From Lachnospiraceae bacterium (GTDB taxonomy: Bacteria > Bacillota > Clostridia > Lachnospirales > Lachnospiraceae), in NCBI GenBank assembly GCA_017517305.1, contig JAFWZV010000010.1, positions 1 to 64,000 of the forward strand: a stretch of DNA of 64,000 nt. Direction: 5' to 3'. Position numbers and translations under genes: made by a program. Under the pieces are notes generated by a model. It saw nothing but the letters and a program-made list of their open reading frames with translations, was not told the DNA's origin and searched no databases. Of this stretch, positions 2,454-64,000 are shown piece after piece (positions within the stretch are counted from its first letter, which is position 1; every line of letters starts with the position of its first letter).

Positions 2454-5400
2454 ATGAAATACAAAAAAGTCATATCATTTATTTTATTTTTACTTTTCAT
2501 TGCAATTAACGTCAGTTCACCTAGTATTTGCGCAGAGGAAAGTATTGAAGATACTGGAGCAAGTGTATATTCTCTGGGTGAGGATGGTGAAAGTATATTA
2601 GTTAGAGGTAATAAAAATACGGTTGGGGATTACGGAGATGTAATTGGGTACGAAGCAACCTCCTCTGCCGGTACTAGTTTTATCGATTATAGAGATTCAG
2701 TTCATCATGCAATGGTGGTTACCTCTGCTTCTGGGACTACTGTGGGGTACTGTATGCAACCATATATGAATGGACCAAGTACCAATGCTTATGTTGATTA
2801 TAATTACATAGAGAATTTGGAACACAGTAATATTTTTGCCGGCTTAGATGAGCTACAGGTGAATAGATGGCGAACATCTTATATTATTGCAGTTCAATAT
2901 GGTTTTGGAGGAGCTAACGCAAATCCTAATTATGCTGGCGTGAGAAATAAACATGATGGAGGAACCTTTGGCTCATATATAATATCTGAGCAAGGGAAGC
3001 TTAAGGTTGTAGATGGCCTTATGATTGGTGGAAAAGTGTACGAAATGACTGAGGGTGAAGCATTGGCTTTAACTCAGGTTATAGTTCATTATGTTGGCAA
3101 TAGAGGAAGTGATAAGAATATAACAGATTTCATAGGGAATACATACCCTGCCAGCACTTCTGCAGCCTTCAAGCATATGAAGAGATATGCTGATAATGGA
3201 GGATTATATTTTGATCAGTTAAAAACCTTGCGTAGCGTGTCTAATGTCTTTGACGCGTATACCCCAACTCAGGTTAAACAGACTATAGATTGGTATGTAT
3301 ATAATTATAATACAGGGCAATGGGATACATATTATGGACAGAAGCTGGGTGAGGAAAATGTGGGCGCAGATAATAAAATACAAATTAAAATTCATTATGC
3401 CTCTAAAAATTTATGTAATAAGCTGGTTAAGAATAGTACTGCGGAAAATACTGTTGTTGAACATAATTATGCTCCTTTTGTGGTTAATCGATTAAGTACA
3501 ACTGCAGATTACTATGATTACTTTTCAGTGACCAACACAAGTTCAATTCCGATAACTGTAACATATAATAATTTGGAAGCGGGAAAGGAACATATTAGTC
3601 ATCAACTTCTTGGAAACATGGAGTATGATATAGACACCTTTGGTCAAAGTGCAATTGTTACTGTAGACGCTTTGGCTATGTTGAATAATAGTGAGAATCT
3701 AGAGCTTAGTGTAAGTACAGGGATTGGTGCATCAGCGGCACCTTGCTATGTGGCAGATACTGGAAGGTATTGTGCCAGAATGTTTAGCTGTGAGAATATA
3801 CAGGATTGTCTTATGATTGCATCTAATATGGAAACAAGCGTAAGTGCCAATGCATCTGTGGATTATGAAGCTGCTGGTTCCATGAAGCTTAGAAAAATCA
3901 GTAGTAGAACCGATGTTACAGATAATAATCCCTGTTATGATAAGACAGGAGCTACATATAATGTATATGCAGTGAATTCTAATCAAGACCAAACAGGAGA
4001 ATTAGTGGGTACATTTTTAGTTAATTCTGATGGTATCGGTATGGTAAGTTACTCAAAATATAATTCTTTAGATGAATGGAATGGTACTGATTTGAGTAAG
4101 ACCACATTGACGAAGCTTCCTTTAGGTTGGTATATGGTGTATGAGACTGTTACCCCAAGTGATGGTTCTTATCTTATGGATACTAAAAGGTATTATGTGA
4201 ATATTACGGCAGAGGATTATAAGGAAACCAAGGTTATAGAAAGCGATGAAAGACCTACCTTTGATCCTATTCCCTTTGAGATTGTAAAGGAATGCTCGGA
4301 GGGGGAGAATGTTGGCTCAGCCACCTTAGAGGGGGCTGAGTTTACAGTTTGGTATTATAAGGGATACTATGAAAGCTATGATGAAATCAAAGCTAATAAC
4401 GTTGCTCCAGATAGAAAATGGATATTTGACACAAGAGTTTCCAAAGCTACTAATAATGCTACGTGTATTATTCATAAGGAGCTTCTGTTGCCAGGAAGCG
4501 ATGAGCCTTACCTAGATGAGGATGGAGATATGGCTCTTCCTCTTGGGACAATTGTTGTGGAGGAGACTAAGGCACCAGATGGATATATGCTTGAGGGTGC
4601 TACATATAATATTGTAAATACTATAGATGGTACTAAGACTTCTATAGATGGACCTTATGTTAGTAAGATTTATGTGGATCAAGGGACAGTTAAGCTTAGT
4701 ATGGGTAATAAGGTTATTGTGGAAGAGAAACCTATTAGAGGAGATATTAGTATCAGAAAAATAGACGAGTATACTGGGAAACCTATGGCAGGGATACCAT
4801 TTTTGATAACCTCTGAGACTACAGGGGAAAAGCATGTGATTGTTACTGATGAAGAAGGCATTGCTTCCACGGAAAATAATTTCAGACCTCATAGCGAGAA
4901 TACCAATAATAATGATGAATATAAAGAGGAGGATACATTAACACCTACAGGAGTTTGGTTTAGCGGTAATAACTCAGATGGAGTATTAGATGATTCTAAG
5001 GGTGCCCTGCCTTATGATACATACATTATTGAGGAGCTTCCTTGCAAGGCAAACCAAAATTATTATTTGTATGAAAGCTTTAAGGTTGATGTGGCTGAGA
5101 ATAATAAAGTGTTGGAGTATGGGGATGTTTTAAATGTACATAAGCCTGAGATAGGAACGGAAGTATTTGATGTTATAGATAATGATAAGGAAATATATAC
5201 TGGTGATAAGGTTTCGATAATTGACAGAGTGTCTTATAAGTATCTTGAACCAGGTAAGACATATGCTCTTGAAGGGACATTGGTTGTATGGTCTACAGGC
5301 AAGCAGTTGGTTGTTGGGGAAAAAAACATTAAAACCTATGTTGAGTTTACACCTAATGGTAGAGATGGAAATATAGATGTACCATTTGAATTTGTGTTAA

Positions 5401-62206: not shown

Positions 62207-62377
62207 ATGGAAACAGTATATTATATAGTTAAAAGCATAGATGGAGATTATGCAAATTTAGTTAGAGAAGATGAACCAAGTGGTGAACCAAAGCTTGTTG
62301 CAAGGGCACTGCTGCCTGAAAATATAAGTGAAGGTTGTAGATTAAAATATGAATTTTTACAGTATGAAATATGTTAA
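62207..62377 (+). CDS. Small 56-residue hypothetical protein
   Basis: ATG behind ATAGGAGATA, 26 bases after the acyltransferase stop. The product METVYYIVKSIDGDYANLV continues with an acidic EDEPSGEPK turn, then ALLPENISEGCRLKYEF and ends EIC. The pattern of a short beta-rich protein with IDGDYA and LPENISEG recalls small DUF3006-like proteins of Firmicutes. The SD, codon use and size support a real gene. Role unknown. Confidence 0.62.
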   Translation: METVYYIVKSIDGDYANLVREDEPSGEPKLVARALLPENISEGCRLKYEFLQYEIC

Positions 62378-62435: not shown

Positions 62436-62464
62436 TTGACATTATGTTTTTCGCATGCTATTAT
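62436..62464 (+). promoter_or_regulatory. Strong promoter of the riboswitch/ABC transporter unit
   Basis: TTGACA (62436-62441), 17 bases, TATTAT (62459-62464) with extended TGC. This is one of the best promoters in the window. Transcription should start near 62471, just at the riboswitch. Confidence 0.88.
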
Positions 62465-62470
62465 ACCCTC

Positions 62471-62566
62471 ATAGAAATTCCTATGAGGGAGTAGCAGACG
62501 TTTATGACGTAATAAGTCAACATCCTGGCCGAAAGGTCTGGCTTATTTTAAATTGCGAGACTCATG
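62471..62566 (+). ncRNA. yybP-ykoY (manganese) riboswitch, probable
   Basis: The conserved core GGGAGTAGC (62487-62495), GTCAACATCC (62516-62525) with a GGCC-GAAA-GGTC stem, and GCGAGACTCAT (62555-62565) are in the order and spacing of the yybP-ykoY class. ATGAG (62483-62487) pairs with CTCAT (62561-62565) as closing helix. CCTCATAG/CTATGAGG at 62468-62488 is a competing local hairpin. The class senses Mn2+ and usually turns genes on. Confidence 0.78.
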
Positions 62567-62579
62567 TATTGCTAATAAA

Positions 62580-62645
62580 GCTATACGTGTGTCTTATTTT
62601 TTATGATTTTAACCGGGTATAGCAATTAGCGTACCCGGTCTTTTT
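62580..62645 (+). terminator. Riboswitch expression platform: terminator and antiterminator
   Basis: ACCGGGTA (62612-62619) pairs with TACCCGGT (62632-62639), followed by CTTTTT: a full terminator. GCTATAC (62580-62586) can instead pair with GTATAGC (62617-62623), which takes part of the left terminator arm, so the two folds exclude each other. Confidence 0.78.
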
Positions 62646-62656
62646 GCGCGTTGCAA

Positions 62657-62862
62657 TGAGCCGTGCTGGATAATGGATTAATTGTTCGTTGGGTGCTTGC
62701 ACACATAAGAACATATTAATCCATTAGACAATGCGGCGAATGCCGCGACACTGAGCGACACGAAGTGTTGCGATGTGTCAGCACGGCGAGGAGTGACACT
62801 GAGTGACACTGAACGACACTGAGCGACACGAAGTGTTGCGATGTGTCAGCACGGCGAGGAGT
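62657..62862. repeat. Palindromic intergenic repeat, copy B, with a duplicated 48-base module
   Basis: TGAGCCGTGC (62657-62666) pairs with GCACGGC (62781-62787, and again 62849-62855). Left arm ATGGATTAATTGTTC (62673-62687) pairs with 62709-62724 (one bulge) around GTGC-TT-GCAC. Right module: GCGGC-GAAT-GCCGC, then GACAC...GTGTC (62747-62779). A 48-base block 62747-62794 recurs exactly at 62815-62862, separated by two 10-base GACACTGA-type units. The gap 62378-62897 thus holds promoter, riboswitch, terminator and this repeat, with no gene. Confidence 0.78.
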
Positions 62863-62897
62863 GAATTTCCTACACATAAGAAAGGATGGTAAAAATT

Positions 62898-63596
62898 ATG
62901 TTTCTTGAAATCAGCGGAATTAAAAAGCACTTTGGAGAGGGTGATAGCAGAGTAGATGTACTTAAGGGTATCGACCTTCAAATCGAAAAGGGAGAGATTT
63001 GCGTTCTTCTTGGACCATCAGGCTCAGGTAAGTCAACACTTCTTAACATTATAGGAGGAATTGATGATGCAGATAGTGGCTACATATCAATAAATGGTGA
63101 GAAGACTGCAGACATGAATGAAAAATCTCTAACAAAGTATAGAAGAAAGCATCTTGGATACATTTTCCAGATGTATAATCTTATTCCTAATCTAAACATC
63201 AAAGAAAACATCGAGGTTGGCGCGTATCTTAGTGACAATCCTTTAGATGTAGACGAAATTCTTAAAACTCTTGGCTTGTATGAGCATAGACACAAGCTTC
63301 CAAATCAATTGTCAGGTGGCCAGCAGCAGAGATGCGCTATCGGCCGTGCTATAGTTAAAAACCCGGATATTTTACTTTGTGATGAGCCTACAGGTGCTCT
63401 TGATTACAACACTTCAAAGGATATTCTTAAGCTTATTGAAGATGTTAATAAAAAGTATGGAAATACAGTTATAATGGTAACCCACAATGATGCTATAAAA
63501 AATATGGCCGATAGAGTGGTTAAGCTTAGAGATGGTGTTATTCGTAAGAATTACCTTAACGATGAAAAGATTGCTGCTATGGATCTTGATTGGTAG
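62898..63596 (+). CDS. ABC transporter ATP-binding protein (MacB/LolD type)
   Basis: ATG 62898 is preferred since AAAGGA is about 11 bases upstream; an in-frame ATG at 62886 abuts that site. The 232-residue ATPase has Walker A LGPSGSGKSTLLN, the Q-loop FQMYNLIPNL, signature LSGGQQQRCAIGRAI, Walker B ILLCDEPTGALD and the H-loop VTHN. The family partners FtsX-like permeases in peptide efflux, antimicrobial resistance or mechanotransmission. A FtsX-like gene starts 12 bases after the stop. Expression should depend on the upstream riboswitch. Confidence 0.93.
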   Translation: MFLEISGIKKHFGEGDSRVDVLKGIDLQIEKGEICVLLGPSGSGKSTLLNIIGGIDDADSGYISINGEKTADMNEKSLTKYRRKHLGYIFQMYNLIPNLNIKENIEVGAYLSDNPLDVDEILKTLGLYEHRHKLPNQLSGGQQQRCAIGRAIVKNPDILLCDEPTGALDYNTSKDILKLIEDVNKKYGNTVIMVTHNDAIKNMADRVVKLRDGVIRKNYLNDEKIAAMDLDW

Positions 63597-63608
63597 GAGG
63601 TGTAGATT

Positions 63609-64000
63609 ATGAAGAATCCACTTAATAAACGATTTGTTAGAGAGCTTAAAAGCGATTTTGGAAAGTACATAGTTCTATTTGTATTTATAGTAGCAATGAT
63701 AGCTATAGTTTCAGGTTTTCAGGTTGCTGGAAATAGTATGATAAAGGCTTATGAAGAAAGCTTTGAAAAGTATAATATCGAGGATGGTAATTTTGAGCTT
63801 ACTGCTAAAGCAGATGAAGAGCTTATTAGTAAGATTGAAGAAAATGATGTGACTATCTATGAGAACTTTTACTTAGAAGAGGAAACTACATTAGGTACAA
63901 CAATGAGAATCTTCAAGAATCGTGAAGAGGTAAATAGAGCCTGTTTAATGTCAGGAGAGTTTCCAGTAGCAGATAATGAAATAGCCATAGATAGAATTCA
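63609..64000 (+). CDS. FtsX-like ABC transporter permease, cut by window end
   Basis: ATG behind TAGGAGGTG. The visible 130 residues have a basic start (NPLNKRFVRELKSDFGKY), one membrane helix (about 21-40, IVLFVFIVAMIAIVSGFQVAG) and an extracytoplasmic start with GNSMIKAYEESFEKYNIEDG and GEFPVADNEIAIDR, the MacB_PCD-like pattern. The remainder lies beyond position 64000. It partners the ATPase just upstream. Confidence 0.85.
   Translation, partial: MKNPLNKRFVRELKSDFGKYIVLFVFIVAMIAIVSGFQVAGNSMIKAYEESFEKYNIEDGNFELTAKADEELISKIEENDVTIYENFYLEEETTLGTTMRIFKNREEVNRACLMSGEFPVADNEIAIDRI

Follow-up and report, generated by a model that had tools for sequence, protein, structure and literature searches.

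A manganese-sensing RNA switch of the yybP-ykoY class quite probably drives transcription, in the ON direction with Mn2+, of a two-gene type VII (FtsX-type) ATP-binding cassette (ABC) system that would serve the balance between manganese and iron in a bacterium of the Lachnospiraceae. Switch and genes lie at the end of the window, by which is meant the whole stretch of 64,000 nucleotides analyzed here (GenBank assembly GCA_017517305.1, contig JAFWZV010000010.1, positions 1 to 64,000 of the forward strand). The aptamer and its expression platform stand ahead of the ABC genes, the pairing of switch and genes is conserved among relatives, and in relatives without the switch a palindromic DNA box often takes its place. 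The switch class is already known; what is new here is the ABC pair as its target, the platform of two stacked hairpins, and the replacement of the switch in relatives by a box that iron genes also have. Targets named in passages of published work are MntP, P-type ATPases (YaoB, mgtA), UPF0016, and YkoY/TerC (PMC9495176, PMC11477304, PMC7266159, PMC7380456, PMC10898510, PMC7838592, PMC6614840, PMC11087558, PMC6754395). The window differs from these mntP, TerC, P-type ATPase, and UPF0016 cases in that its target is an FtsX-type ABC pair, a kind of target named in none of the available passages of the open papers searched, which is not to claim that it is unpublished.

The features of the leader and of the genes behind it are given below. 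RF00080 is the Rfam model of the class, R1 is a model trained on the window sequence among others, R2 was built from other loci, and A1 is an alignment of 16 aptamers.

62436–62464, plus strand: sigma-70-type promoter, TTGACA-17-TATTAT, 11 of 12 consensus positions matching
62481–62566, plus strand: yybP-ykoY (Mn2+) aptamer, as judged by its core; RF00080 24.6 bits, R1 103.5 bits, R2 86.6 bits
62482–62487, plus strand: 5' strand of switch helix P1, TATGAG; partner CTCATG at 62561–62566
62487–62495, plus strand: L1 core GGGAGTAGC, with GGGAGTAG in 16 of 16 A1 aptamers
62516–62525, plus strand: L3 core GTCAACATCC, with TCAACAT invariant in A1
62555–62566, plus strand: 3' core GCGAGA and P1 3' strand CTCATG; exact motif GCGAGAC from 62555
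62558–62602, plus strand: hairpin 1 (terminator or anti-antiterminator), stem 62558–62594, then U-tract TATTTTTT
62571–62586, plus strand: antiterminator 5' strand, GCTAAT-AAA-GCTATAC, complementary to 62617–62630
62612–62645, plus strand: hairpin 2, intrinsic terminator ACCGGGTATAGC..GTACCCGGT-CTTTTT, stem 62612–62639, then CTTTTT
62617–62630, plus strand: antiterminator 3' strand, GTATAGC-A-ATTAGC, within hairpin 2
62646–62864, plus strand: dispersed repeat, between the terminator and the ribosome-binding site
62886–63596, plus strand: ABC ATPase, 236 amino acids (232 from the ATG at 62898); PF00005 124 bits, nearest solved chain BceA
63609–64000 and on past the window end (G000:C10:63609-65858), plus strand: FtsX-type permease, 749 amino acids; PF02687 73 bits

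A preliminary description of this DNA had read from its letters a consensus promoter, a yybP-ykoY-like aptamer core, and a terminator with a mutually exclusive antiterminator. All three are borne out, the core blocks at exactly the places given for them. The search with the 221-base window leader against 61 genomes gave matches in 17, of which 16 belong to the genus, the window's own genome included. Alignment A1 holds 14 distinct aptamers among its 16, with the window's own among them and L022, identical to L021, left out. The script that cut out the aptamers required the first and the last core block, both of which are present in all 17 loci anyway, and GGGAGTAG, TCAACAT, and CGAGACTCATG are invariant throughout A1. 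Class members are recognized by L1 (GGGAGUAG) and L3 (UCAACA) with an invariant discriminator adenosine, and all of these are found in 16 of 16. Among the 32 ABC-linked aptamers of the wider set of relatives described below, GGGAGTA occurs in every one, with TCAACA in 29 and CCAACA in three. The helices of A1 covary: both-sided changes are seen in 10 of 22 base pairs, and 94% of cells are paired compared with 21–47% when partners are slid. Covariation on both sides falls in P2 (72% of cells paired), P3, and P4, while P1, with 97.6% of cells paired, varies on one side only; one of the five covariation measures, that of further pair types, is no higher than in shuffles. Judged by its core, 62481–62566 is an ordinary member of the yybP-ykoY class.

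The Rfam search proposed in the preliminary description does return RF00080, at 62487–62627 with 24.6 bits (E 7.1e-5 in a 521-base search). This score is beneath the curated cut-off of 45 bits, so that scans of the whole window and of the whole genome at that cut-off give no match. The same cut-off misses 20 of 20 branch loci with R1-found aptamers ahead of mntP, P-type ATPase, GDT1, or Na/Ca exchanger genes, as well as 12 of 12 ABC-linked loci, and only two of the five control genomes that give an RF00080 signal pass it. Because mntP-linked members of the branch are missed too, the cut-off is an unfair test here and does not decide membership, and the refuting outcome named in the preliminary description, a missing covariance-model match, is ambiguous. 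SSRC10, a Streptococcus small RNA (RF02617), also matches at 62483–62600 with 26.2 bits, under its 56-bit cut-off; we read it as resembling a streptococcal yybP-ykoY leader, since its consensus has similar GGGAGuagC and GCgaGaC blocks.

The ligand would be Mn2+. In passages of PMC6754395, an adenosine of L3 (A48 in Xanthomonas oryzae, and likewise in the Lactococcus lactis RNA) is described as a soft contact to Mn2+ that discriminates this ion, and A62522 aligns with A48 in our own alignment. Homologous aptamers stand ahead of Mn2+ exporters, with mntP downstream in 72 of 123 classified loci (order-wide, among the matches listed).

The expression platform follows the aptamer immediately, and the leader as a whole folds far better than its shuffles (z −6.1, with none of 200 shuffles as good). 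P1 and hairpin 1 compete for the strand CTCATG; hairpin 1 excludes P1 because the P1 3' strand lies within the 5' arm of this hairpin. In the absence of ligand, the calculated energies are −63.2 kcal/mol for the OFF fold of 62466–62645 and −39.0 kcal/mol for the ON pairing. Both antiterminator segments could be obtained from 29 of 31 ABC leaders. In 23 representative leaders the native antiterminator duplex averages −15.9 kcal/mol compared with −11.4 kcal/mol for cross-species duplexes, and none of 5000 permutations, drawn without regard to kinship, reaches the native value. By eye, hairpin 1 is without a clear U-tract in the relatives L087, L074, L086, and L095, so that in those leaders hairpin 2 would be the terminator and hairpin 1 a sequestering stem.

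In the mechanism that we propose, hairpins 1 (62558–62594) and 2 (62612–62639) would fold when Mn2+ is absent and transcription would halt. Mn2+ would clamp L1 onto L3 and so stabilize P1 (62482–62487 with 62561–62566), which would capture the 5' strand of hairpin 1 and release its 3' half (62571–62586). The released strand could then pair with the 5' arm of hairpin 2 (62617–62630), relieving both terminators together, and the resulting ABC system would work in Mn/Fe balance. The predicted direction is thus ON, with Mn2+ raising transcription. In L. lactis, according to passages of PMC11087558, Mn2+ stabilizes the switch helix and relieves termination. The transcriptional yybP-ykoY switch of that species, as described in parts of PMC11087558 and PMC6754395, shares with the window the L1/L3 cores, the discriminator adenosine, and a P1 3' strand that also belongs to a platform hairpin; the window differs in having two tandem hairpins and a single antiterminator able to lift both. 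Within the genus, three leaders of mntP (L014, L017, L019) have the same aptamer and, by eye, a second hairpin with a 5' arm able to pair with hairpin 1, but they precede another gene and have another spacer between the hairpins.

Transcription would start at about 62471. Promoter-like sites are not commoner in the region than chance (21, against 26.3 in shuffles); TTGACA-like boxes are also seen by eye ahead of the aptamer in L008, L009, and L011. A 5' hairpin at 62466–62489 was considered as a part of the switch and rejected: its 5' arm overlaps the predicted transcription start, and it is missing in L011–L013.

The pairing of this switch with these genes is not peculiar to the window. The genus sample comprises 37 genomes with 47 permease rows: 12 orthologues (full-length permease, at least 1380 bits), one partial second copy at a contig edge (G005), and 34 others. 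All 12 orthologues have the switch, 11 of them in cis; in G009 a contig break falls within the ATPase gene, and the end of another contig holds the aptamer together with the start of the gene. Eighteen of the 34 other family rows were scanned, and the aptamer is absent at all 17 with at least 1000 bases upstream (L252 has only 104). Two more distant ABC members qualify this exclusivity to orthologues, one behind an aptamer in G016 and one in G020, where the aptamer precedes an ABC ATPase gene at the edge of a contig. The 30 R1 matches in the genus stand before ABC genes (14), mntP (10), Na/Ca exchangers (4), and unclear genes (2), and at five of the leader-match loci (G019, G008, G024, and G023 in the genus, and G052) mntP is downstream.

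Beyond the genus, the best 80 of 320 permease relatives in GTDB species genomes were taken from Lachnospiraceae, Ruminococcus, other Oscillospiraceae, and Clostridium. The aptamer is found 0.8–1.2 kilobases (kb) before the permease in 32 of the 80, all labelled as metagenome-assembled or uncultured and at least eight of them contigs of genus members already counted. In a quick permease tree, made without bootstrap, the aptamer is present in all 28 rows that could be assessed in one clade of 29 and also in L087 and in L121/L122/L139, which requires at least four changes. The claim of the preliminary description that this would be a manganese-linked transporter unusual for the class is supported by the 12 genus orthologues and the 32 relatives, and the same pair, which it had suggested seeking in related genomes, recurs across the order.

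Order-wide, the aptamer occurs in 152 of 393 genomes. A census was made of 130 aptamers (30 loci and 100 more), the top-ranked among the matches listed; a second aptamer of G199:C183, inside a stretch already taken, was skipped. A simple rule gave the first open frame downstream for 123 and none for seven. MntP, ABC, and Na/Ca exchanger labels came from phmmer comparison to seeds and the remaining 27 were assigned by eye, with Pfam spot checks of three of 17 P-type ATPases, one of four GDT1, two of two decarboxylase beta subunits, and one of 12 exchangers. Among these listed matches the downstream gene is mntP in 72, a P-type ATPase in 17, a Na/Ca exchanger in 12, an ABC ATPase in 12 (one being the window's own), GDT1/UPF0016 in four, an oxaloacetate decarboxylase beta subunit in two, and unclear in four. 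A relative of the window permease comes next in 12 of the 12 ABC cases, weak or cut in L039, L043, L062, and L298.

Two other kinds of target appeared in the same census. Oxaloacetate decarboxylase beta-subunit genes (PF03977) behind two aptamers (L343, L356) are unexpected. Na/Ca exchangers recur behind the Mn-type aptamer, at 12 of the 130 loci order-wide (L274, L287, L288, L302, L310, L318, L320–L322, L324, L325, and L339; PF01699 where tested) and at four of the 30 in the genus (L189–L191, L198).

A plain replacement of MntP by the ABC system was considered and ruled out: 10 of the 12 genus carriers of the pair retain MntP, and for this reason the ABC system is not simply the missing manganese exporter. 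In G033 the switch-ABC and switch-mntP pairs lie about 6 kb apart. The window's genome has its MntP at G000:C15:99745-100188, adjoined in divergent orientation by a Na/Ca exchanger (PF01699). The leader of this exchanger (L216, 2240–2345) matches R2 with 24.9 bits (E 4e-4 in the 21 kb searched) and was missed by the genome-wide R1 search; with this weaker Mn-type leader, a second switch of the class is probable in the window's genome.

Relatives that lack the switch offer a second line of evidence. The upstream sequence sufficed for a count at 74 of the 80 relatives, with close relatives left unthinned, and the controls were the reversed pattern and 30 shuffles of two-base blocks. In the 1.4 kb ahead of the permease, an exact copy of the palindrome GTTAG-N6-CTAAC (GTTAGN6CTAAC) is present at 26 of the 42 loci that have no switch, mostly at −740 to −850, just ahead of the ATPase, and 37 of the 42 have it when one mismatch is allowed. 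The reversed pattern occurs in none of the 42, exact or with one mismatch, and the shuffles average 0.07 and 0.8. At switch loci the box is exact in three of 32 and within one mismatch in eight of 32, compared with 0 and 1 for the reversed pattern and shuffle means of 0 and 0.57. In L121, L122, and L139 the box lies upstream of the Mn aptamer, and both stand ahead of the same ABC genes.

The box also has iron genes as neighbours at some of its other sites in genomes of Blautia, Butyrivibrio, Coprococcus, and Ruminococcus (box sites L362–L397). Its carriers include cultured bacteria such as Butyrivibrio hungatei. Counts of box sites and of the reversed control in six genomes are 1 and 4 (the window's genome), 9 and 4, 3 and 5, 8 and 2, 9 and 0, and 19 and 0. 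The neighbours were identified through Pfam for ten proteins and by eye for the others. Seven of 34 box sites examined have a feo, DtxR, flavodoxin, ApbE, or ZIP gene close by: feoA or feoB in L364 and in L366, the latter a site of the window's genome with a feoA-like frame on one side and feoB on the other; DtxR-family genes in L363 and L366; flavodoxin in L367 and L389; ApbE in L365; and a ZIP transporter in L385. One further site, L362, is an ABC of the window's family itself. The box is thus a candidate iron-regulon box and may be an iron-responsive operator of the DtxR type; the open papers searched gave nothing relevant to its iron side. Since a single ABC family is tied to the box, to the Mn2+ switch, or sometimes to both, Mn/Fe balance is the best reading of its role. 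The ABC system might export Mn2+ itself or a complex of Mn, or it might have a function in the envelope that is needed at a high ratio of Mn to Fe. More tentatively, and with somewhat less than even confidence, we suggest for the family as a whole that it is an effector of Mn/Fe balance whose control has been exchanged between a DtxR-type box and an RNA sensor of Mn, that L121, L122, and L139 are living intermediates of this exchange, and that one antiterminator lifts two stacked terminators.

The ABC genes themselves allow other readings. The permease matches PF02687 in two stretches (73 bits, cut-off 25.5), and an ATPase together with an FtsX-domain permease defines an FtsX-type (type VII) system. 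With MacB, LolCDE, BceAB, YtrEF, and YbbAP the pair shares the ATPase superfamily branch and the type of permease, but it differs from them in its separate ATPase and a 749-residue permease with two FtsX stretches. An ABC ATPase with an FtsX-type permease was thus correctly recognized in the preliminary description, while its MacB/LolD label reaches only as deep as the superfamily: the ATPase is below every NCBIfam cut-off shown, including those of MacB, LolD, and FtsE. Orthology with MacB was rejected (203 bits against 966, the fused-protein cut-off; PF12704 18.1 against 27; ATPase and permease in separate genes), as was orthology with LolD/LolCDE (196.9 bits against the LolD equivalog cut-off of 307.75). 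No MacA-like partner was recognized by eye beside the genes, and no chain among solved structures matches the permease by sequence. The permease gene of G031 (L065 / L236) has a single in-frame stop codon.

An ordinary exporter for envelope stress or antimicrobial peptides, of the Bce/YtrEF kind, with Mn2+ or iron serving as a proxy for host conditions, is a serious but unlikely alternative. The nearest solved relatives of the ATPase include BceA, MacB, and YtrE, and the permease is of the FtsX type. Bce-type exporters have an adjoining two-component system, and in G033 (L026) a response regulator comes after the ABC genes, together with a kinase-like frame; they were seen by eye and outside any systematic two-component search. 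TetR-type regulators adjoin none of the 80 family loci by motif, with one regulator-like frame seen by eye upstream in L096. Against a mere proxy speaks the convergence of a Mn2+ switch and of a box shared with iron genes on one family.

That the ABC system aids the acquisition or saving of iron, being induced at high Mn2+ since the excess ion mis-loads a DtxR-type repressor and starves the cell of iron, seems fairly improbable to us. It would suit the occurrence of the box beside feoA/feoB, flavodoxin, and ApbE and the three loci in which box and switch occur together; yet the mis-loading of the repressor is argued from its family, and the loci give no direct sign of iron handling. A variant aptamer sensing a divalent ion other than Mn2+ (such as Fe2+, Ca2+, or Co2+), to which the ABC system would then belong, is improbable. 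Variants of yybP with altered specificity are considered likely to be common in passages of a review (PMC7266159), and ABC relatives behind the box are also near iron genes, but the L1/L3 cores with the Mn-discriminating adenosine are unchanged in 16 of 16 aptamers, mntP-linked copies among them.

An insertion of the repeat between the switch and an original gene such as mntP, leaving the ABC genes as accidental neighbours, was an alternative of the preliminary description that we regard as next to negligible, since, even though the repeat does lie exactly between terminator and ABC genes in the window, the switch stands directly before the ABC genes without it in seven of the 12 genus orthologues (G033, G030, G010, G005, G034, G001, G014), and the pair recurs in records named as other families and in other genera.

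Several observations weigh against the reading of a Mn2+-ON switch governing Mn/Fe balance. Apart from the missing match to RF00080 at its curated cut-off, the permutation test of the antiterminator is blind to kinship among leaders, and in four of its 23 leaders (L075, L077, L092, L124) the native pairing is no better than pairing with foreign segments. The box was spotted by eye in no-switch leaders first and counted afterwards; five switch loci beyond the three exact ones carry it with one mismatch; it exceeds the reversed control in only four of the six genomes and is not enriched in two, the window's included. Of its 34 sites, 20 have no recognized metal-linked neighbour, and six (L368, L369, L376, L380, L384, L394) are near DUF3793 or DUF2325 only. 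Ten of the 12 genus carriers of the pair also have MntP, the two without it being G030 (97% complete) and G010 (87%). FtsX-type ABC proteins are not known to act as ion pumps, and the regulator and kinase-like frame of G033 recall the two-component systems beside Bce-type exporters.

The repeat itself is real, but comparison with another copy places its start at about 62646, at the U-tract of hairpin 2, and not at 62657 as first given (62657–62862). It is weakly like Clostridiales-1 RNA (RF01699 31 bits, cut-off 48), contains two copies of a 48-base unit (at 62747 and 62815), and is restricted to a close group (G000, G009, G018, and G003, with a remnant in G031). Another copy, in L003 at about 1500–1650, likewise begins at a terminator U-tract, after a lysine riboswitch and before a dapA-like gene; a third (L004) has no riboswitch/terminator leader of this kind. 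In L124, a full Clostridiales-1 RNA (2983–3149, 141 bits) lies between the Mn switch and the ABC genes. Could the repeat be a dispersed element that seeks out terminators? The open papers searched held nothing relevant on Clostridiales-1 RNA. Upstream, between an acyltransferase gene and the switch, is an open frame of 56 amino acids (62207–62377), also visible in G031 and G003.

With this pairing, the Mn2+ riboswitch regulon of gut Firmicutes gains an unstudied transporter family, and a type VII ABC system is given a testable role. The manganese regulon of this branch is probably under-annotated, because at the 32 loci tested every Mn-type aptamer is passed over at the RF00080 cut-off while R1 and R2 match it. 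The family also provides a natural case in which a riboswitch and a DNA box shared with iron genes replace one another on the same genes. If the proposed reading is true, a mechanotransmission-type ABC system would be acting in transition-metal homeostasis.

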